Assembly (NCBI GenBank): GCA_938002815.1
Contig: CALKZT010000008.1
Location: 1 to 45,676 of the forward strand
DNA from: an uncultured bacterium
GTDB taxonomy: Bacteria > Desulfobacterota > DSM-4660 > Desulfatiglandales > CALKZT01
Direction: 5' to 3'
Length of the DNA: 45,676 bases
The notes under the pieces are model-generated. The model ran no database searches. It worked only from the letters and a program-made list of their open reading frames with translations, and was not told the origin of the DNA. Below, one piece after another: positions 7,900-37,389 of this stretch (the first letter of the stretch is position 1; each line of letters opens with the position of its first letter). The translations under genes and the position numbers were made by a program.

Positions 7900-10800
7900 C
7901 TAATTACCTGGCACCAGTTTTATTGTTCCTTTATAAATTTTATTTTGGTCTAAGTCCATTACAGAAAACTCGCCACTTTTGATCCCTCCTTCTCCTGTAT
8001 CCGAAATAAAACCCCATCCAAATGAATTCACTCCGGAAGGTTCCTTAACATTGATATTAAGGGTTAACTCCTTGTAATAGCTGTCAAAATAACCTACCAC
8101 AACCATTTCCGAACCAAAGGCAGTGACATTAAAGGTAACATATTTATCTTGCTGAGCCAATACTGTCTTGCCCTGGAAACTTTCGCCGGCTATCTCATCT
8201 AAGGTATCTAAATCCGTTACAGTCACATTCTCTATAAAATAGTTGTAGCTGCCTTCCCATAAAACAGGTTTGGGCCCTTCAGGTATGTTTACCACATCTC
8301 CATAGCCAAAGTCTTTTGTGAGGAGCTGGAACGGATAATAGGACTCCACATCCTTTATAGAGACATCGTCAATAGCCCACCCCCTATATAGACTACCCGG
8401 GAGATTCTTGTGTATAAACCTAAACCTCAATTGTATCTTATGACCCCCAAATGGCTGGAGATTATACTCCATTGGTACCCATTCCAACAGGGTAGGATCC
8501 TCAGATCCAAAACCAAAACTTGTGCTCATGGGAGGCATGTAGACTGTCTTTGTCTCTGTCCCAGGTAAGATGCCAGCTACCCACTCTGCCAAGTTTGTAA
8601 GCCCATCTCCGTCAAGGTCTGAGTCAGGGTCTAAGCCTCCTAATTCGAGCATATCTGGGATGCCATCCTCATCTTCATCCCCACCATAGAATGAGCTAAA
8701 GTCAAATCCGTATAAGAGCATTGGATTAACCTGGGCCAGTGGGACAAATTCACCTTTCTTTAATTTTGTGCTTCCATATATACTCTCAATGGTAACTGCG
8801 TCCCCCTCCTTTAGGGTGTCATCCACTATGGCAATCTCAACTACCAAGCTTGCTGTCTTCGTGCTACTAACTTCAAACCATGTATTGAAGGTCAACACAG
8901 GAGAATCAAAATTTGTAAGATCATAAACTGGAGAAACGGTGACACCCTCAAGGTTTTTATTAGAGTAAACAGAGTCATAATAAGTCCCTTTGAAAGATCC
9001 ATTATTCATATTGCCAAACCAGTAAACTTTGGAGCCAGAAAATGGAGGAGGTAGTGTTATAATCTTTTTCTCCTTGGGTTTCTTATATGAAACCATTATA
9101 ACCGAACCATTTTGTATCGGATAGGTGTAATTCTCTGTGACTGCATACTTCCCGAAATCCCACCAAATATATATATCAGTACCTGTAAAATCACCAAGTG
9201 TAAAAAAGTCATACCCAGGGACTGTCTCATCAATATCATATAAAAATACTGTGAGAGACTTAGGTTGTCCATTTACTGTATATGTCAGTATGGCATTGTA
9301 TACTTTATACCAATCCGGATATGACAAGTCATTGTTCAGGGTGATATCGGTTACAGTCCCCTCTGTATCCTCCCATTCTTCAATACCCTGAGAGAAGTAC
9401 TCCATGACCTTGTTGTTTACCTGAACTGACTCGGGATTTTCCACCACCTGCCATTTGGTATCGCTATTGGCCACCTCAGCCCCTTCCACAAGTACCTTGC
9501 TCGTCCAACCTGTTAAGGGGCCTTCAAAACCCTCCTTTATATCTACAGAGGTGGGTTTTGGTTTTAATGAGATCTCTTTTAAAATTACGCTGCCTGTTCC
9601 AGAGATCTTCTCAAAGGGGGAGCTATAATAACCCTGCTTACTGGCAGATATTTGCAGAAAGGATAGAACAGATTTGGGAATCATGTAAAAAGAAAAACTG
9701 CCTGATTGGTCACTATACACCTCATAATAAGGGGCTGTACTAAAGCCTGGGAAGAGATCCACTAAGTTTTCACCCTGCTTGAAAAACATTGCATAGCCTG
9801 CACCCATTTCACTGTAGCTATTGGATTCACTATCACCAAATTGAACCACCAACTCAATAAAAAGAATAGCAAATTGCTCTGATTCCAAATTTGCGAGATT
9901 CTCGATCTCACTTAGAAATAATGTGTTTTTCCCTTTGCCTTTTATAGTCTTTAGGACGTTTTGATAATTGGAATCATATATTCGCCACTCATATAATGCA
10001 TTTTCATCCTTCCTTACTGTTACCCCATCTTTGGCCACTTTTATTTGATCTAATACAGATGGAGCTTTCAAAATAACTTTTGCATCTAAAATTGGATCGT
10101 TAGTATCAGAATCTTTTATCTTTCCTTCTATTTTCAAGACTTGCCCGAAAGACTTTAAGCTTATAGTTATGGGGTTGCTGACTTCATTCTTGGTGACAGT
10201 CTTGGTCTCTCCATAGTAACCATCTACCCATGTCAAAATGGTAAAATAATTTAGATCACCTTGTCCCTGATCCAGCAAAGTAATTTTGAAATCAAAATTC
10301 CCCTTGTCATCGGTTATGGCATATTCTGAGAAGCCATCCACCATTACATAAGCCCCAGGGATCCCATTTCCTGAATCCTTGTCCGTTACCTTGCCTTTCA
10401 AATTCAGCTGACCTGCAGATTTTTTGGAGGCAAGCAAGAACACAAAGGTGTGGAGCTGATTCAGAGGACTCCCTTCTCCAGATCTTATATACTCCTTTTC
10501 AACCACACCTTCCCCTGGCACCTTGTACCAACCCTCATTGCCCTTTGCAACCAGGACCAAAGTCCCCTCTTTCTTGTTAAGCTTTTCTTTAATATCCTCC
10601 ACTGAGTACTTGCCCAAAATCTTTTTTGTGCTTACTGTGATAACCCCTTGAAAACCTGCCTCCTCATTGGTAATGGGTTTGCCCTTTGAGTCCACCATCT
10701 CTACACTCGCCCCCCCCACTGGCACGGCCTCACCACCCAAGTCCAGCTTAGCTATCTCATCAAGCCCGGGTATCACATTAAGGGCCTTAAAGGGTGTAAC

Positions 10801-31163: not shown

Positions 31164-32078
31164 ATGGAAAAGAAAAGATACAGGTCCTTCAACTCATATC
31201 TCAGGGAGCTCTTTCAAGAGAGGGTGCAAAGGGTACCCCTTGATGCAGGACTTGGCTGCCCCCACAGAAAATCCTTAGTGGAAGGTGGCTGCATATACTG
31301 TGGTCCTTTTGGTTCTGGGACAGGGAAATCCTTTCAGTCCCTCACCATATCCCAGCAGATGAGAGAAGGGATCCAAGCTGTAAAAAAGAGGTATAGGGCA
31401 GCATATGTCATAGCCTATTTCCAGTCCTATACCAATACCAACGCCTCCATAAGTCTCCTTAGATCCCTAATAGATGAGGCAGTCTCCTTTGAGGAAGTGG
31501 TTGGCCTCTTTGTCTCCACAAGGCCAGATTGCCTGAACAAAGAGGTCATAGAACTCCTGTGCGAATATAAAGGTAGATACCTTACATGGCTGGAACTTGG
31601 CCTTCAATCCATACATGAAGAGACCTTGAGGTTGATAAATAGGGGGCATGGATTAGGGGAGTTTGAGGAGGGGTTTATGCTGGCCAGATCTTACAATCTT
31701 CCCGTCTGTACCCATATTATTATGGGGCTCCCCAATGAGACAGAGGAGATGATGCTTGGAACAGTAGAGTACCTTGCCAAGATCAAAACCGATGGCATAA
31801 AGATTCACAACCTCTATGTCCTTGAGGGGACAAGGTTATGGGAGATGCTAAAGGATGGCCTCTATCAGCCCCTGGATCAGGAGACCTATGTGGATCTGGT
31901 GATTAAGGCATTGGAGTTATTGCCCCCTGATACAGTGATCATGAGACTCACAGGGGATCCACCTCCCAAGACCCTCTTTGAACCCCGGTGGGCCTCACAA
32001 AAGGGTAAGACGTTACAGAAGATAGAATACGCCCTAAAAAGCTTAGATACCTATCAGGGGAAGAGATGGAAGAAATAA
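31164..32078 (+). CDS. Radical SAM protein, YhcC / TIGR01212 family
   Basis: A 304-residue radical SAM enzyme of unknown reaction. The family's variant cluster motif is visible: GLGCPHRKSLVEGGCIYCG, with the first cysteine spaced from the CxxC pair as in YhcC. Other markers are YFQSYTNTNA, STRPDCLN, WLELGLQSIHEETLRLINRGH, THIIMGLPNETEEMM, and KIHNLYVLEGT. All are complete. It starts 36 bases from the divergent phosphatase gene with AAAGGG upstream, and its stop is overlapped by the alkyltransferase gene (13 bases), so the two are likely cotranscribed. Confidence 0.93.
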   Translation: MEKKRYRSFNSYLRELFQERVQRVPLDAGLGCPHRKSLVEGGCIYCGPFGSGTGKSFQSLTISQQMREGIQAVKKRYRAAYVIAYFQSYTNTNASISLLRSLIDEAVSFEEVVGLFVSTRPDCLNKEVIELLCEYKGRYLTWLELGLQSIHEETLRLINRGHGLGEFEEGFMLARSYNLPVCTHIIMGLPNETEEMMLGTVEYLAKIKTDGIKIHNLYVLEGTRLWEMLKDGLYQPLDQETYVDLVIKALELLPPDTVIMRLTGDPPPKTLFEPRWASQKGKTLQKIEYALKSLDTYQGKRWKK

Positions 32079-32548
32079 GCTTTTGGGGGACATACTTTAT
32101 GGGTCTCTACTTCGAGGTGATAAGCTCCCCCCTTGGGCTCAAGAGGATAGTGATCGCCAAGGATCCTCCCAAAGAGATATCTGAACCCAAAGACCGCTTC
32201 GTCATGACAAACCTCCTCTTGGCCCTAAAGGGCATGCCCCATGAGCTCCCCCCCTTGGATATAGATGACCTCACCCCTTTCAGAAAAGAGGTATTGGAGG
32301 CAATAAGGGGGATCCCCTTTGGTAAGAGACTCACCTATGGGGAGCTTGCAAGGTTAGTGGGTAGGCCAAAGGGAGGGAGGGCAGTGGGACAGGCCTTGGG
32401 ATGGAACCCAGTCCCCATCTTTTTCCCCTGACACAGGGTGGTCTCCTCCAGGGGGCTTGGGGGTTTTAGGTATGGAGAGGAAATAAAGGCCCATCTTTTA
32501 AAGATAGAGGGGAACTATGGGCAAGACCACTTGTATTTTGGGATCTAA
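32066..32548 (+). CDS. ogt: O6-alkylguanine-DNA alkyltransferase, candidate selenoprotein (in-frame TGA at active site)
   Basis: Suicide repair protein that moves alkyl groups from O6-alkylguanine in DNA to its active-site residue. Codons 1-121 read IPFGKRLTYGELARLVGRPKGGRAVGQALGWNPVPIFFP in the conserved part: helix-turn-helix, RAVG arginine finger, Asn hinge. Codon 122 is TGA (32429-32431) where all family members have the reactive cysteine of PCHRV. The frame continues HRVVSSRGLGGFRYGEEIKAHLLKIEG, the normal C-terminus, to TAA at 32546-32548, giving 160 residues. A SECIS-like hairpin follows the TGA. Selenocysteine insertion is the simplest reading; a one-base loss of the Cys codon (pseudogene) is the alternative. 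GGGGAAGAG precedes the ATG, which overlaps the radical SAM gene. Confidence 0.8.
32429..32463 (+). promoter_or_regulatory. Candidate bacterial SECIS element with its TGA codon
   Basis: After TGA (32429-32431), CCTCCA (32445-32450) pairs with TGGGGG (32458-32463) in six pairs including one U-G, closing the loop GGGGGCT (32451-32457). The loop starts 20 nt after the TGA, inside the 16-37 nt range described for bacterial SECIS, and begins with G as the consensus asks. An alternative fold (GGTCTCC with GGGGGCT, loop TCCA) exists, so the structure is not unique. Confidence 0.55.
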
Positions 32549-32563
32549 GACCTATAAGTTAGC

Positions 32564-34276
32564 TTGGTATATGCCTTACTTAAAAGGAGGTTTCGGGGCA
32601 TAAAATCCATCTACGGTAAGACCTCTGGACTCAAGGCGTGGCAATGGGCAGCCCTTGAAAGGCTTTTGAGGCGCAAGGTCCCGGCGGAGAGGCCCATTAC
32701 CCTTGATCTGGCAAGGGAGCTGGCGTGGCTCTCCTTTTCCATAGGGAAACAATTAGGCATACTCATAAACAGAAAAGGGGAGATCACCCATGTGATCGTG
32801 GGTACATACGACTCTGTCATTCTCCCCAATTTTGTCTGGAAGCTAAAATACGGCGGGGGGACACTGAGGGGGATCAGATTCGTCCACACCCTTAGGGAAA
32901 GGGAGAGACTCTCCAAAAGGGATGAGACATATCTTATCCTCTTTGGTCTGGATATGGTCTTGGGCATGGAGGTGAGATGCGACGGAAGTCCTGGCAGATG
33001 CCATTATTCCCACATGCTGCCCGTAAGAGAAGGGACAAGGATCCGGACAGAGTCGGTTCCGGATCCAGGGCATTTGGGCTTTGACTTTCATGGCCTGATA
33101 TCCTCCCTCGAGGAAGAATTTAGTTCCTCCGGGGGCCCATCCCCTGTAAAAAAGGTCTCAAGGGCCATTTTGGTGTCTGCTGGCCTTAAAAAGAAGGAGG
33201 AATTGATCAATTCTTTAGAGGAGTTAGAGGCCCTTGCCATTTCAGATGATATAGTGGTCTTAGACAAGCTCACCCAGGCCCTCAAGGAGCAGGACCCCAA
33301 GTTCTTTATTGGTAAGGGCAAGTTAAACGAGGTGGTCCTACTTGCCCGACAAAAGGCCGCAGATCTCATCATATTCGACGGAGAGCTTACCCCTGCACAG
33401 CTTAGAAACATAGCTGATCATACGGACCTAAAAATAATAGACAGGACCCAGCTCATACTGGACATCTTTGCAAGGAGGGCAAAGACAAGGGAGGGCAAGA
33501 TCCAAGTGGAGCTGGCCCAGCTGAGGTACATGCTCCCAAGATTGAGCGAAAAGAACCATGCCTTTTCAAGGCTTACAGGGGGAATTGGGGGAAGGGGACC
33601 TGGAGAGACGAAGTTAGAGATAGATAAAAGGAGGGTAAAGGAGAGGATCTCGAGGCTTTCAAGGGAGCTGGAAAAAATAGGGGGTCAGAGGGAGCTTAGG
33701 AGAGCTCAGAGGAAAAAGAATCAGATCCCCGTTGTCTCATTGGTGGGCTACACCAATGCGGGGAAGTCAACCCTGTTGAACACCCTTGTGGGGGGCAATC
33801 TCCCCGCAAGGGATAGGATGTTTGAAACCTTAGATCCCTTTGCCAGAAGGCTTTTCCTCCCTGGTCATGGACAGGTGCTCCTGACGGATACCGTGGGATT
33901 TATTCAAGACCTCCCAGAAAGTCTTTTGGATGCCTTTGCCTCTACCTTGGAAGAGCTGAAGGACTCTGATCTCATCTTGGAAGTGATAGATGCCTCAAAC
34001 CCGAGATTGGAAGAACATATGAGGGTAGTGGAGGATCTCTTGGCAAGACTTGGCCTCGTGGATATCCCTAAACTAAGGGTCTTCAATAAGACAGACAAAA
34101 TAGACCCCATTGAGGCCAAAAACATAGGAGAAAGGTATCAGGGGTTATGCATCTGTGCCTTACGAGAGGAGTCCCTGTCCCCCTTGATCCTCTCCATAAA
34201 GGACTTGCTGGGAAGCCCAAAGGGTAATTCCCACCTTTTTCATACTGAATTCCGGAGAAATTTGGGATTGCCGTGA
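32564..34276 (+). CDS. hflX: Ribosome-associated GTPase HflX
   Basis: Splits and rescues stalled 70S ribosomes. The protein has a long N-terminal domain (TSGLKAWQWAALERLLRRKVPAERPITLDLAREL and so on), the HflX glycine-rich loop GGIGGRGPGETKLEIDKRRVKERI, then the GTPase motifs GYTNAGKST (G1), DTVGFIQDLP (G3) and NKTD (G4). The only standard start is TTG at 32564, without a ribosome binding site. Homologues begin near IKSIYGKTSGLK, where an in-frame ATA at 32600 stands nine bases after a perfect AAGGAGG; a non-standard start there is possible. It lies 15 bases after the alkyltransferase gene, and its TGA overlaps the GTG of the next gene. Confidence 0.93.
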   Translation: MVYALLKRRFRGIKSIYGKTSGLKAWQWAALERLLRRKVPAERPITLDLARELAWLSFSIGKQLGILINRKGEITHVIVGTYDSVILPNFVWKLKYGGGTLRGIRFVHTLRERERLSKRDETYLILFGLDMVLGMEVRCDGSPGRCHYSHMLPVREGTRIRTESVPDPGHLGFDFHGLISSLEEEFSSSGGPSPVKKVSRAILVSAGLKKKEELINSLEELEALAISDDIVVLDKLTQALKEQDPKFFIGKGKLNEVVLLARQKAADLIIFDGELTPAQLRNIADHTDLKIIDRTQLILDIFARRAKTREGKIQVELAQLRYMLPRLSEKNHAFSRLTGGIGGRGPGETKLEIDKRRVKERISRLSRELEKIGGQRELRRAQRKKNQIPVVSLVGYTNAGKSTLLNTLVGGNLPARDRMFETLDPFARRLFLPGHGQVLLTDTVGFIQDLPESLLDAFASTLEELKDSDLILEVIDASNPRLEEHMRVVEDLLARLGLVDIPKLRVFNKTDKIDPIEAKNIGERYQGLCICALREESLSPLILSIKDLLGSPKGNSHLFHTEFRRNLGLP

Positions 34277-36276
34277 AAGCCCTCCTTCTTTTTCCACCCT
34301 TCTTCTTCCCAGGTATGTATAGCCTTCCTCCCTTGGGCCTCATAAATTTGGCCACAGTGGCAAGATCCTCAGGCCATGACGTCCAGATAATGGACTGTGT
34401 CCTTGGTCTAAAAAGGGGGGAACTCCCCTTAGGCCCAGAGATCTATGACAGAATAGGGGAGAGGATAGTGAGCCATGGGCCTCAAGTAGTCGGGATATCA
34501 TGTCAGTCTACCACCCTCCCTGCAGCCATAAACATCGCCAAGAGGCTAAAAAAAAGGGCCCCTGAGATACTGACCCTCTTGGGGGGTCACAATGTGGCCT
34601 TTCAGGCCCACCAATTGATGATATCTTTTCCTTGGCTGGATATGATTCTGGAAGGTGAAGGGGAACTGGGATTCCATGAGCTCTTAGATACCCTAAAGGG
34701 ATCAGGGGAACTATCCCAGGTAAAGGGGCTATGGTGGAGAGGCCCAAGAGGTATCACATATAACGGTAGGAGGCCCCTTGTTGAGGATTTGGATACCCTG
34801 CCTTTCCCAGACTATAGCCTCACCCCAAGTCCCAGAGAATACCAAGATGCCTATAATTTGGAGGTCCCCATTGCCATCATAGAGACAGGGAGGGGCTGCC
34901 CCCATTCCTGCATATACTGCTCAGAGTCCTCCTTTTGGAGGCGAAAGGTAAGGCTCTATTCTGTGAGCCGTATTGTGGAAGTCATGGAGAGGCTCTACCA
35001 CCAATACCAGGTGAGGTATTTCCTCCTGGCACACGATCAGTTTACCTCTAACAGGAAATTTGTAGAGGAATTCTGCAAAAGGCTTCTAAATAAGGGCCTT
35101 GGGGATATTGCCTGGTATTGCATTTCAAGATTGGACTCAGTGGATAGAGATCTCCTCAGTCTCATGGCCCAGGCAGGGCTAAAGACCATGTGCTATGGTA
35201 TTGACTCTGGCTCTCCCAGGACCCTAAAGTTCATCAGAAAGGGATTGGATAGAGGGCTTCTATTTAAAAGGGTAAAGGAGACCTTGGACGAAGGTGTGAT
35301 CCCAACCCTCAGTTTTGTGATAGGCTTCCCAGAGGAAACAGAAGAGGATATTCATCTCTCATTGCAACTTGCCCTTATGTGTGCCTCTTATGGGAATACT
35401 GCACAACTTATCCAGATCCCAACTGTACTTCCAGGGACTCAGCTCTTTGAGAGATACAAAAACAGATTGGTAAGAGAAATAGACAGTTATTTTGCCCTTG
35501 GGTTAGAATTTGACGGAGTCAGAAGGCTTTACGAAGACGAATACCTCATAAATACGTATCCTCAAATCTTTTGTAGCTTTTACAATATAAGACCTAAAGG
35601 CATGGAAATCAAAAAACTGAACCTTCTAACAAATTACTTTCCCATTATATTAGAGCTATACCCTAAAACATTCCTCCTCTTATCTGAAATCTTAGATAGA
35701 TATGTCCACCAGATATTTCTCCAATTCCTTGACTATATAACCACAAAAAGAGGTTACAAAAAGTTTCTCATAAGTGCAAAAAGTGCCCTGTTTTATCTTA
35801 AGGGGTTTATAAAAGGCCTCTTTTCGGCGCATCCCTATCTAAGAGAGATCTTCAGCTACGAAACTCTTTGCGCTTACGCGCGTTTCCTGGACAAAGATAA
35901 AGGCGTTTTGGCAAGAAAAAAGAGAGAGCAAGGGTTACCATTAAAGAAGGTATTAACTCAGGCCTTCCATTTTGACATCCAGAAAATTATATTAGGGATT
36001 ATCTCAGGGGAAGGCCTCAATCCAGTGGAGAGGAAAAACTTCTTGGTCTTCCACAAAAGAGATAGTAAGGTGGAGGTGGTAGAGTTAGATGAGTTGGGGT
36101 ACAGTCTCCTTATGGCATGTGATGGACGAAGAGATATAGAGGGAATAAGGGGGAAACTGGGTTATCTTCAAGGGGAGTTTTCCTCCTTGTCAGAAAGAGA
36201 TATCCTCCTTGCACTGGAGGAGCTAAGGGATCTGGGTTTCATTACCTGGTCCCATAAAAGAGGAAAGGAGGTGTAA
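34273..36276 (+). CDS. B12-binding radical SAM protein with C-terminal PqqD-like (RRE) domain, probable RiPP maturase
   Basis: A 667-residue enzyme. Residues 1-150 form a cobalamin-binding-type domain (GLINLATVARSSGHDVQIMD, VVGISCQST, LLGGHNVAF, ILEGEGE). The radical SAM cluster motif CPHSCIYC is at 209-216, followed by the core (YGIDSGSPRTLKFIRKG, SFVIGFPEETEEDI). A helical linker follows. The last 80 residues (VVELDELGYSLLMACDGRRDIEGI to ALEELRDLGFITWS) match the PqqD fold used as a RiPP recognition element. The gene immediately downstream, four bases away, encodes a repeat peptide, so peptide maturation is the likely job (inference); thioether formation or methylation are chemically possible. 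It starts at GTG overlapping the hflX stop. Confidence 0.88.
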   Translation: MKALLLFPPFFFPGMYSLPPLGLINLATVARSSGHDVQIMDCVLGLKRGELPLGPEIYDRIGERIVSHGPQVVGISCQSTTLPAAINIAKRLKKRAPEILTLLGGHNVAFQAHQLMISFPWLDMILEGEGELGFHELLDTLKGSGELSQVKGLWWRGPRGITYNGRRPLVEDLDTLPFPDYSLTPSPREYQDAYNLEVPIAIIETGRGCPHSCIYCSESSFWRRKVRLYSVSRIVEVMERLYHQYQVRYFLLAHDQFTSNRKFVEEFCKRLLNKGLGDIAWYCISRLDSVDRDLLSLMAQAGLKTMCYGIDSGSPRTLKFIRKGLDRGLLFKRVKETLDEGVIPTLSFVIGFPEETEEDIHLSLQLALMCASYGNTAQLIQIPTVLPGTQLFERYKNRLVREIDSYFALGLEFDGVRRLYEDEYLINTYPQIFCSFYNIRPKGMEIKKLNLLTNYFPIILELYPKTFLLLSEILDRYVHQIFLQFLDYITTKRGYKKFLISAKSALFYLKGFIKGLFSAHPYLREIFSYETLCAYARFLDKDKGVLARKKREQGLPLKKVLTQAFHFDIQKIILGIISGEGLNPVERKNFLVFHKRDSKVEVVELDELGYSLLMACDGRRDIEGIRGKLGYLQGEFSSLSERDILLALEELRDLGFITWSHKRGKEV

Positions 36277-36279
36277 GGG

Positions 36280-36423
36280 ATGTTGAAGGTAAAAAAGGTT
36301 GAAACCAGAGTCTATTCCTCTGCAAGCTGCCATGCTCCAAGTTGCCATGCCCCGAGCTGCCATGCTCCCAGTTGCCATGCTCCCAGCTGCCATGCTCCAA
36401 GTTGCCATGCCCCTACCAATTAA
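36280..36423 (+). CDS. Candidate RiPP precursor peptide with six SCHAP repeats
   Basis: A 47-residue peptide. A 15-residue leader MLKVKKVETRVYSSA is followed by six perfect Ser-Cys-His-Ala-Pro repeats and ends Thr-Asn. It has the best ribosome binding site in this part of the window (AAAGGAGGTG, nine bases before ATG) and starts four bases after the stop of the radical SAM/PqqD-like gene. The repeat codons vary at third positions (AGC/AGT, GCT/GCC, CCA/CCC/CCG/CCT) while the protein repeat is perfect, which argues for selection on the peptide. I do not recognise the family. Alternatives are an unmodified metal-binding peptide or a chance repeat expansion; the neighbours make those less likely. 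Confidence 0.85.
   Translation: MLKVKKVETRVYSSASCHAPSCHAPSCHAPSCHAPSCHAPSCHAPTN
36325..36414 (+). repeat. Six tandem 15-bp units encoding SCHAP
   Basis: Ninety bases in six units of pattern AGYTGCCATGCYCCN. The serine codon alternates AGC, AGT three times over, and units 1-2 match units 5-6 except for the last base, so the array probably grew by duplication of a 30-bp double unit. Confidence 0.95.
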
Positions 36424-36434
36424 TTAGACCAAAA

Positions 36435-36458
36435 GGCCTGGGGAATCTTTCCCCGGCC
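36435..36458 (+). terminator. Hairpin between precursor peptide and methyltransferase genes
   Basis: GGCC-T-GGGGAA pairs with TTCCCC-GGCC (ten pairs, one bulged T) around the loop TCT, 11 bases after the peptide stop. No T tract follows (CGAAAACC). It may act as a partial terminator or mRNA stabiliser giving more peptide than enzyme, an arrangement often seen in RiPP operons. Confidence 0.5.
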
Positions 36459-36471
36459 CGAAAACCATAAG

Positions 36472-37389
36472 ATGCACGAATCCACCTTAGAATTTCTTAT
36501 CTGCCCAAAATGTCTTCCCAAAGAAAGACCGCTTAAGCTTAGCGGTAAAAGGAAGGAGAGGGGCAGAATCCTCTCCGGTGAGCTATACTGCAAGGCCTGC
36601 AAATCAGCGTATCCCATATCTCAGGGGGTACCCGTTCTCTTGCCGGCTCCGAAGGGTTTTGACCGTTACGAGAATCCCTCTTACTTAGCCAATTACTTTT
36701 ATCTCCACTATGCCGATCTTTTAGGCCAGGAGGCCAAGGATATCCTATTTTACGAGGGATTAGTGGAGGGCTCTGATACATTCCTGGAGGTAGGCTGTGG
36801 GCCAGGCAGGCTCACACTGGAGATGGGGAGACGTTTTACTTTGGCAGTGGGGATAGACTACTCCTTTTCCTTTTTGAAATCTGCCTTGCGTCTCCTTAGG
36901 GGTAAAGCCCTTAGATTTGGGCTCCCTCTGGAGGGGGATTTGGCGATCCCCATATCGATTACGCCTCCAGAGGGCTGGCAGGAGCTAAGTGTCGAATTTA
37001 TTGCTGCAGATGCCCATAATCTCCCGTTTCCTAAGGATACCTTTGGATCCATTGCCTCGATCAATCTCATAGACCGAATCCAAGATCCCCTGGCCGCCTT
37101 AAAGGAAATGGAGAGGGTCCTCAAAAAAAAGGGGGCCCATTTTCTCATCGCAGATCCCTTTTCCTGGTCAGAGGAATTTACCCCCCGCTCTCGCTGGTTG
37201 GGGGGCAGACAAAGGGGGCCTTTCAGGGGAAGGGGGATAGAAAACCTTAGAAGGATATTGGAAGGTGATCTAAATATCTTCTCCCCTCCCTTGGGTTCTA
37301 TCACCTCTGGTGAACACACCTGGACCCTCAGGGCCCATGAAAACAGGAGGGAGATCATAAGAAGCCTCTATCTAAAGGCTAAAAGGTAG
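36472..37389 (+). CDS. SAM-dependent methyltransferase with N-terminal Trm112-like zinc ribbon
   Basis: A 305-residue protein. Residues 1-60 hold two cysteine pairs, CPKC and CKAC (LICPKCLPKERPLKLSG, GELYCKACKSAYPISQGVPVLLP), the Trm112/Trm11 ribbon layout. A class I methyltransferase domain follows with the glycine-rich FLEVGCGPGRLTLEMG, the acidic GIDYSFSFLKSA, FIAADAHNLPFPKDTFGSIASINLIDRIQDPLAALKEMERVLKKKGAHFLIADPF. It has no clear ribosome binding site and lies after the hairpin that follows the SCHAP peptide gene. Its proximity suggests it methylates the peptide or tailors it; a separate housekeeping role is possible. It converges on the mutase genes with four bases between. Confidence 0.88.
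   Translation: MHESTLEFLICPKCLPKERPLKLSGKRKERGRILSGELYCKACKSAYPISQGVPVLLPAPKGFDRYENPSYLANYFYLHYADLLGQEAKDILFYEGLVEGSDTFLEVGCGPGRLTLEMGRRFTLAVGIDYSFSFLKSALRLLRGKALRFGLPLEGDLAIPISITPPEGWQELSVEFIAADAHNLPFPKDTFGSIASINLIDRIQDPLAALKEMERVLKKKGAHFLIADPFSWSEEFTPRSRWLGGRQRGPFRGRGIENLRRILEGDLNIFSPPLGSITSGEHTWTLRAHENRREIIRSLYLKAKR

Follow-up and report, generated by a model that had tools for sequence, protein, structure and literature searches.

A conserved cassette of a B12 radical SAM enzyme and Cys-His-x-Pro repeat peptides, with a putative selenocysteine form: a candidate RiPP family

The locus and its genes

The window analysed here is the whole stretch of 45,676 nucleotides of contig CALKZT010000008.1 (assembly GCA_938002815.1) from an uncultured bacterium of the Desulfatiglandales (Desulfobacterota; DSM-4660; CALKZT01). 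The system in question is a cassette of three genes that encode a B12-binding radical S-adenosylmethionine (SAM) enzyme, a 47-codon peptide with six Ser-Cys-His-Ala-Pro repeats and a methyltransferase. A first-pass annotation, made from the letters of the DNA, had located all three genes at the coordinates found here and had seen in them the logic of a pathway for a ribosomally synthesized and post-translationally modified peptide (RiPP), in which an enzyme with a recognition domain, a repeat substrate and a tailoring enzyme stand together. In the window the three genes follow hflX in the same direction, and the methylmalonyl-CoA mutase genes downstream of the cassette lie on the opposite strand. 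The radical SAM gene (34273..36276, +) starts with a GTG that overlaps the hflX stop codon. Its product of 667 aa, assigned with Pfam, NCBIfam and an AlphaFold model, matches the Pfam families Radical_SAM (9.6e-21) and B12-binding (1.9e-15). The B12-binding domain (PF02310) spans residues 17-137 (34321..34683, +), and the radical SAM cluster motif CPHSCIYC is found at residues 209-216 (34897..34920, +). The C-terminus, residues about 560-659 (35950..36249, +), is a predicted leader-binding domain that resembles PqqD and other RiPP recognition elements (RRE), placed by a match to ApyI and by PqqD and ApyI matches of individual family members.

The peptide gene starts 3 bases behind the enzyme gene and not four, as had been annotated, and the ribosome binding site ascribed to it, AGGAGGTG (36266..36273, +), is present just upstream of its ATG. 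Its translation, MLKVKKVETRVYSSA(SCHAP)6TN, has 47 residues and consists of a leader, MLKVKKVETRVYSSA (36280..36324, +), the core of six perfect SCHAP repeats that had been described (36325..36414, +), and a Thr-Asn tail that is followed by the stop codon (36415..36423, +). Tandem Repeats Finder returned three rows for the whole window, two of which are the SCHAP array (scores 157 and 127) while the third scores 40. Between the six 15-bp units the only differences are synonymous ones at third codon positions, therefore it is the peptide sequence that has been kept. The methyltransferase gene (36472..37389, +) encodes 305 aa with a Trm112-like zinc ribbon (Pfam, 4.9e-9), as had been proposed, and a class I domain (2e-16) that TIGR04345, a PDB profile and Foldseek place with the OvoM/OvsM-type N-methyltransferases.

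Conservation of the repeat peptide

A search of 99 related genomes found 12 full-length homologues of the enzyme and two partial ones besides that of the window. The full-length homologues are 43-46% identical to it in the search and 41-44% in alignment A1, and a CHxP peptide adjoins the enzyme in 13 of the 14, locus L012 being without one. A scan of GTDB 220 with two conserved patterns, one genome per species (84,980), yielded 47 loci, and detects only relatives that keep a pattern. All 47 come from metagenome-assembled genomes, 46 of them from Deltaproteobacteria or groups formerly placed there and one from Pseudomonadota. In a sample of 395 genomes of the phylum, 13, that of the window among them, have the enzyme at E 1e-120 or better, and this sample added two further loci, L094 and L095. 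The loci from the 99 genomes and from the GTDB scan overlap and are not summed. Spread by viruses was rejected, as four viral stretches fit a pattern and none of them encodes a relative.

The window and the 47 scan loci together make up the 48 loci on which most of the counts below are based. A Cys-His peptide lies beside the enzyme in 45 of them. It is a CHxP repeat peptide in 33 and a UHAP peptide, in which U stands for an in-frame TGA codon, in 13; L042 has both and three loci have neither. Two of these three are L049, where the contig ends 96 nt after the enzyme, and L038 (4470-4532), where the last residues of the enzyme frame itself are ESPVRR, with which the UHAP peptides also end; the L038 precursor seems to have been lost by deletion or through an assembly error. 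As a control, 19 loci of distantly related B12 radical SAM paralogues (L004 and L007 left out) were inspected with flanks of up to 1.5 kb, and none has the repeat. The expectation of the first-pass annotation that homologues of the enzyme would be accompanied by a repeat peptide is thus borne out. A metallothionein or a chance repeat was rejected on the strength of the 45 of 48 loci with a peptide beside the same enzyme and of the synonymous variation between units. Matches of the peptides to Keratin_B2_2, Extensin_1, an elgicin-type lantibiotic and Rv3852 are weak, lie under cut-off and resemble matches of composition.

The units were compared in 32 loci, L042 being left out, in which 207 tandem units have Cys, His and Pro fixed by the search pattern. 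Position 1 is mostly Ala (95) or Ser (85), position 4 is Ala in 168 units, Gly in 26 and Ser in 13, and synonymous change is free. Leaders are similar in most homologues and typically read K-[IVL]-K-x-VE-[KR]-[KR]. Two of the loci have two repeat blocks split by a short spacer, L061 (after 8038) with 12 CHxP units and L073 (after 8034) with 9. In L042, around 8082-8620, one enzyme is followed by two successive precursor genes, for a peptide of five irregularly spaced CHAP copies and for a UHAP peptide.

Could the Cys-His units, modified or not, simply bind copper, zinc, nickel or haem, the peptide being a metallophore or buffer and the modification tuning its affinity? The window peptide packs six Cys-His pairs into 30 residues and the number of tandem units ranges from 4 to 9 across the 32 loci, with 12 in L061, as it does in binding arrays. 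The UHAP form, on the other hand, has one putative Sec-His site (Sec, selenocysteine) and mostly no other Cys-His pair, and by eye the leader is charged and not like a signal peptide. Neighbouring genes were clustered from open reading frames of >=80 aa with E 1e-15 and 60% overlap as thresholds, and many of the contigs stop after a few kb, so that the absence of a neighbour is not proof; among the annotated clusters there is no metal regulator or transporter, the sole recurrent transporter seen being an amino-acid-type ATP-binding cassette (ABC) system in some UHAP loci. A metal-binding role is regarded as quite unlikely.

The radical SAM enzyme

The cysteines C209, C213 and C216 of the CPHSCIYC motif are invariant in all 45 rows of alignment A3, which does not include L038, L081 and L083. 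The best NCBIfam model for the window enzyme is ApyD, with 265.2 bits against a cut-off of 750, and membership of the ApyD family (NF050148) was ruled out. Residues 560-659 match the RRE protein ApyI (NCBIfam, 2.6e-6). When the C-termini of 35 of the 45 enzymes (alignment A5) were isolated, 24 of the 35 matched Pfam PqqD at E<=0.1, with 8.6e-7 as the best value and 0.014 for the window; at the same threshold 33 of 35 matched ApyI and 25 of 35 the PqqD model TIGR03859. The AlphaFold model has a mean predicted local distance difference test score (pLDDT) of 90.2 and gives the C-terminus a topology of strands followed by helices, with block values of 76-92 up to residue 660. These matches in 24-33 of 35 members and the model topology agree with the PqqD-like C-terminus that had been suggested. 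In a tree of 48 enzymes (the window, 45 of the 47 loci, L094 and L095) the window enzyme has a branch of 2.45 against a median of 0.29. It is far longer than those of its 47 relatives though the cassette is intact, and because of this length the window enzyme is termed divergent and not basal.

The closest solved folds, TsrM, TokK, MgmA and CysS, are all B12 radical SAM methylases. Within the RiPP frame the enzyme could therefore be a plain C-methylase that methylates carbons of Cys, His, Ala or Pro in each unit, with the second methyltransferase adding an N- or S-methyl group and an exchange of Cys for Sec merely tuning a metal or redox site. In this reading it would act like ApyD, TsrM, CysS or the C-methylating enzymes PoyB/C. 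This possibility is favoured by the enzyme class, as ApyD, the best family model, methylates the beta-carbon of Tyr in the account given in parts of PMC11117315. The sections of PMC11002830 on TmoD likewise describe a B12 enzyme that C-methylates a peptide sulfur product three times in succession. For the window enzyme the ApyD score is far under cut-off, and C-methylation leaves unexplained both the exchange of Cys for Sec at the site and a partner methyltransferase of the kind that acts on thio- or selenohistidine. It is a possible explanation, held tentatively.

The methyltransferase

By a wide margin in both sequence and predicted fold, the methyltransferase is closest to OvoM, OvsM and OvoA. 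A profile built from 18 of 22 family sequences (alignment A4) matches OvsM (9bxh) at 1.9e-32, OvoA at 3.4e-32 and OvoM at 6.7e-32 in the PDB, and the next methyltransferase follows at 1.6e-13. The model (pLDDT 86.3) gives the same result, as the first 11 Foldseek matches are all OvoA, OvsM or OvoM (4.4e-17 to 1.6e-14), followed by RlmA (5.2e-10) and carnosine N-methyltransferase (3.2e-9). Membership of the OvoA_Cterm family (TIGR04345) was ruled out by its curated cut-off. OvsM is the 5-selenohistidine N-methyltransferase of the ovoselenol pathway. The methyltransferase gene of the cassette is found in 22 loci, all of which have CHxP peptides. The sulfoxide synthase half of OvoA (TIGR04344) passes its cut-off in one of 23 cassette genomes examined. 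Three near-full-length OvoA-type matches under cut-off (125.8-133 bits), in the UHAP genomes of L044, L060 and L075, are not OvoA; they were identified as EgtB, with 482-490 bits against a cut-off of 360.

A form of the peptide with an in-frame TGA

The first-pass annotation, confined to the window, went no further than the SCHAP form; a selenocysteine version, the thio/selenohistidine-type methyltransferase and recurring peptidases are additions to it. In 13 loci of relatives, and not in the window, the peptide is shorter and carries a TGA, in frame, where the others have Cys, followed by HAP(S/T)(E/Q)SPVRR and a stop codon. It has the same kind of leader, and GGAGGTG precedes the gene in all 13. 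Two of the loci, L059 and L064, read CHVP-x-TGA-HAP and keep the five-residue spacing, therefore the TGA stands at the next Cys of the repeat. Summed over all pairs of the 13 sequences, the mismatches in the five codons after the TGA number 62, 0 and 216 at first, second and third codon positions. For comparison, the leader gives 51/49/146 and the region behind the stop codon 227/219/242, both in six sequences. Judged from these patterns, coding constraint continues after the TGA of the UHAP peptides. The segment TCTCCGGTNCGGAGAT is near-invariant behind the TGA in 13 of 13 loci, with one base changed in L071. Even the silent positions of the codons TCT CCG GTN CGG AGA do not vary, save the loop base and one CCA, and these codons are able to form a stem with a GGUN loop, a candidate SECIS-like hairpin.

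Transfer RNA for selenocysteine (tRNA-Sec) scores above 70 bits in 12 of the 13 UHAP genomes, the best value in that of L064 being 50.2, and SelB is over cut-off in 12 of 13, the genome of L069 excepted; each genome has at least one of the two. All 31 genomes searched included, 29 pass each cut-off, the window's among them, therefore the selenocysteine machinery is not confined to the UHAP clade. In 14 control genomes tRNA-Sec passes in 5 and SelB in 2. In the tree a branch supported at 100/97 has the 13 UHAP enzymes all to one side, and L038 is inside this clade. Five UHAP peptides had no NCBIfam match up to E 10. From the codon pattern and the machinery we infer that the TGA would be read as selenocysteine.

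Two other readings of this form were weighed. The peptide might end at the TGA and the conserved stretch be a terminator or another element, a reading to which a hairpin directly after the TGA and its weak shuffle z-scores would lend themselves. It is very improbable in view of the third-position-biased change after the TGA, the in-frame HAP, the CHVP register, the presence of tRNA-Sec and SelB, and the lack of a U-run right behind the hairpin. Alternatively, the Sec/Cys-His-x-Pro units could imitate formate dehydrogenase and act as a decoy, carrier or repair part for its Mo/W centre. UHAPS or UHAPT does occur in 3 of 13 formate dehydrogenase loci from such genomes (L107, L109 and L110), and UHxP is the motif of FdhA and FwdB in the portion of the review table consulted (PMC13188914). 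The other ten loci comprise seven with UHSST, one with CHAST and two without a pattern match, no formate dehydrogenase is seen among the annotated recurrent neighbours, and an agreement of four or five letters may be chance. We know of no role for a B12 radical SAM enzyme in formate dehydrogenase, and mimicry of this kind is given hardly any credence.

Recurrent neighbours

An M19 dipeptidase gene is present in 27 of the 48 loci, namely 12 of 13 UHAP loci, 14 of 32 CHxP-only loci and L038. The UHAP locus without it, L068, ends 344 nt after the enzyme, and in L056 the gene is upstream on the other strand. A cluster of M3-type oligoendopeptidases is found in 5 loci. A SufS-like class V pyridoxal phosphate (PLP) enzyme occurs in 10, its best PDB match being the cysteine desulfurase 5b7s (1.8e-41). 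By eye the 10 proteins have no Cys in common in their C-terminal 130 residues; a cysteine desulfurase role was set aside, therefore a lyase or other activity is possible. The amino-acid-type binding protein of the ABC system (PF00497 in L042) lies upstream in some loci of the UHAP clade (clusters 37 and 22). Hopanoid genes (HpnH over cut-off and an HpnG-like phosphorylase) and a GDPD-like cluster lie upstream of Syntrophobacteraceae-type loci; they are the upstream context of one clade and were not counted with the cassette.

Proposed pathway

The genes described above very probably form a cassette of RiPP type that acts on Cys/Sec-His units, and its best reading is a new RiPP family in which each Cys(Sec)-His unit is modified. 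The conserved family and the RRE-like C-terminus support the RiPP logic that had been read from the window. In the pathway proposed here, the C-terminus of the B12 radical SAM enzyme would bind the leader, which is short, basic and typically KxKxVEKK, and each of the one to twelve Cys-His-x-Pro units in a peptide would then be modified by the enzyme. The modified site of one clade would be Sec-His-Ala-Pro, with Sec encoded by a UGA that has the hairpin directly behind it. Where present, the OvoM/OvsM-type methyltransferase would most likely N-methylate the imidazole of the modified His, and in many relatives the M19 dipeptidase, sometimes with the M3 oligoendopeptidase and the class V PLP enzyme, may cut the product down. 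As a whole, this sequence of leader binding, unit modification, methylation and trimming is, on balance, a probable explanation. The likelihoods given in this text to the different explanations overlap.

The nature of the modification is less certain. Replacement of Cys by Sec at the modified site suggests that the chalcogen, be it sulfur or selenium, is involved in the product. A bond between the Cys sulfur (or Sec selenium) and the imidazole, which would give a peptidyl thio- or selenohistidine, is favoured because of this exchange and of a methyltransferase of the thio/selenohistidine kind; it is a tentative proposal that stands level with C-methylation. That the methyltransferase turned up at none of the loci with the putative Sec form tells against such a bond. 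A more far-reaching scheme is an oxygen-independent ribosomal synthesis of thio/selenohistidine, in which the enzyme links Cys S or Sec Se to the neighbouring His ring, OvoM-type N-methylation follows in the sulfur branch, and the M19 and M3 peptidases and the class V enzyme as a PLP lyase release a small redox cofactor. This scheme is unlikely in its entirety. If it were true, selenium would reach a small molecule through UGA.

A number of points weigh against the proposed pathway. We infer all of its chemistry, and the folds closest to the enzyme are mostly those of methylases. At full length the window protein matches Pfam PqqD at 0.18, and the C-terminal profile matches solved PqqD chains weakly (5sxy at 0.2 and 3g2b at 0.48). 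L041 has no peptide beside its enzyme, none being found within 1.7 kb. Folding of single sequences gives a weak UHAP hairpin, with shuffle z-scores of -0.3 to -2.1, and two of eight (L044 and L064) prefer another fold. The methyltransferase reaches 96.5 bits (1.7e-27; 96.9 bits in a second search) against TIGR04345 ovoA_Cterm, whose cut-off is 170, and was found beside none of the 13 UHAP loci and is missing from 11 of the 33 CHxP loci (L042 is counted in both); therefore N-methylation is ruled out as the core step. The window cassette has no M19 gene beside it. The one M19 gene of that genome is on another contig, and its product is 30-38% identical to the cassette-associated dipeptidases. 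The class V PLP gene is convergent with the cassette and not co-directional. EgtB, the oxygen-using enzyme of ergothioneine synthesis, is present in three UHAP genomes (loci L113, L114 and L115), and OvoA homologues have been reported from anaerobic environments in the portion of PMC12631010 consulted, so that the argument from a lack of oxygen is weaker.

Relation to known systems

Several known systems share parts of this arrangement. According to the sections of PMC11117315 on aminopyruvatide, the ApyD cassette of Burkholderia thailandensis likewise has an RRE-fused B12 radical SAM enzyme, a tiny precursor and a separate methyltransferase. The precursor is modified there at Tyr-Leu-Tyr-Asp and not at Cys-His repeats, the methyltransferase is MppJ-like in contrast to the OvoM/OvsM type found here, and the cassette includes a P450 and a multinuclear non-haem iron-dependent oxidase (MNIO), neither of which is seen among the annotated neighbours here (PMC11117315). 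The selenobacteriocin SbtA/SbtM, a thio/selenooxazole RiPP, similarly combines a Cys/Sec precursor and an insertion element after the TGA with a radical SAM maturase in the part of PMC11002830 that treats it. SbtM is a SPASM-type maturase with a SGUG motif containing 2 Sec in the corresponding review entry (PMC13188914), whereas the enzyme here is of the B12 type and the motif UHAP. Membership of the SbtM/SbtA group was ruled out on these two grounds and by the lack of an NCBIfam match for five peptides.

The ovothiol (OvoA/OvoB/OvoM) and ovoselenol (OvsM) pathways provide the closest methyltransferase, and have Cys and His as ingredients in common with the cassette. In the ovothiol route, as summarised in parts of PMC12631010, a sulfoxide synthase joins His and Cys oxidatively through their side chains, whereas here Cys and His belong to a ribosomal peptide. 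The 'Cys-every-fifth' RiPP peptide CefA (NF038108) has Cys at every fifth residue as the SCHAP peptide does and is the nearest NCBIfam precursor model. The window peptide scores 16.2 bits against its cut-off of 30 and eight of nine homologue peptides score 15.2-19.7, the ninth being without a match, and CefA membership was ruled out by this curated cut-off. PqqA/PqqD/PqqE is another case of a ribosomal scaffold for a small redox product, pyrroloquinoline quinone, with an RRE, a radical SAM enzyme and proteolysis, and has a different radical SAM class and different residues.

The first-pass annotation knew of no described family with a Ser-Cys-His-Ala-Pro core, and none came to light: there is no RiPP that joins CHxP repeats to a B12 radical SAM enzyme, and no UHAP selenopeptide, in NCBIfam, Pfam or the open-access literature searched, with subscription papers mostly outside its reach. 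The UHAP precursor would tend to escape gene finding because it is short and appears to stop at the UGA. A review table of 119 prokaryotic selenoprotein families contains one entry recognised as a RiPP, the selenobacteriocin with its SGUG motif (PMC13188914). The family described here is conserved and appears to point to sulfur or selenium chemistry not known before, possibly a ribosomal, oxygen-independent route to histidine-chalcogen products. To our knowledge it is rare for Cys to be replaced naturally by Sec at a modified site of a RiPP, and such a replacement would open a direct way into the chemistry. Should the product be a thio- or selenohistidine, the cassette would be a ribosomal counterpart to the oxygen-dependent ovothiol and ovoselenol routes.

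An in-frame TGA elsewhere in the window

Outside the cassette, the window contains a gene with an in-frame TGA. An O6-methylguanine-DNA methyltransferase is encoded at 32066-32548 (+) and matches PF01035 at 7.3e-28 when the TGA is read as U. The TGA (32429-32431) falls at the expected active-site Cys (FFP-U-HRV), and a hairpin after it is no stronger than those of shuffles (z 0.37). In the window genome (G000; contigs C67, C26 and C32) both components occur twice: the SelB-like genes score 384 and 280 bits and the tRNA-Sec-like genes 80.7 and 57.2 bits, the second of each being together on one contig. A similar second pair is present in the genome of L079. With SelB and tRNA-Sec in the same genome, the O6-methylguanine-DNA methyltransferase of the window is probably a selenocysteine form, and its family is already listed in the consulted portion of the selenoprotein review table (PMC13188914).

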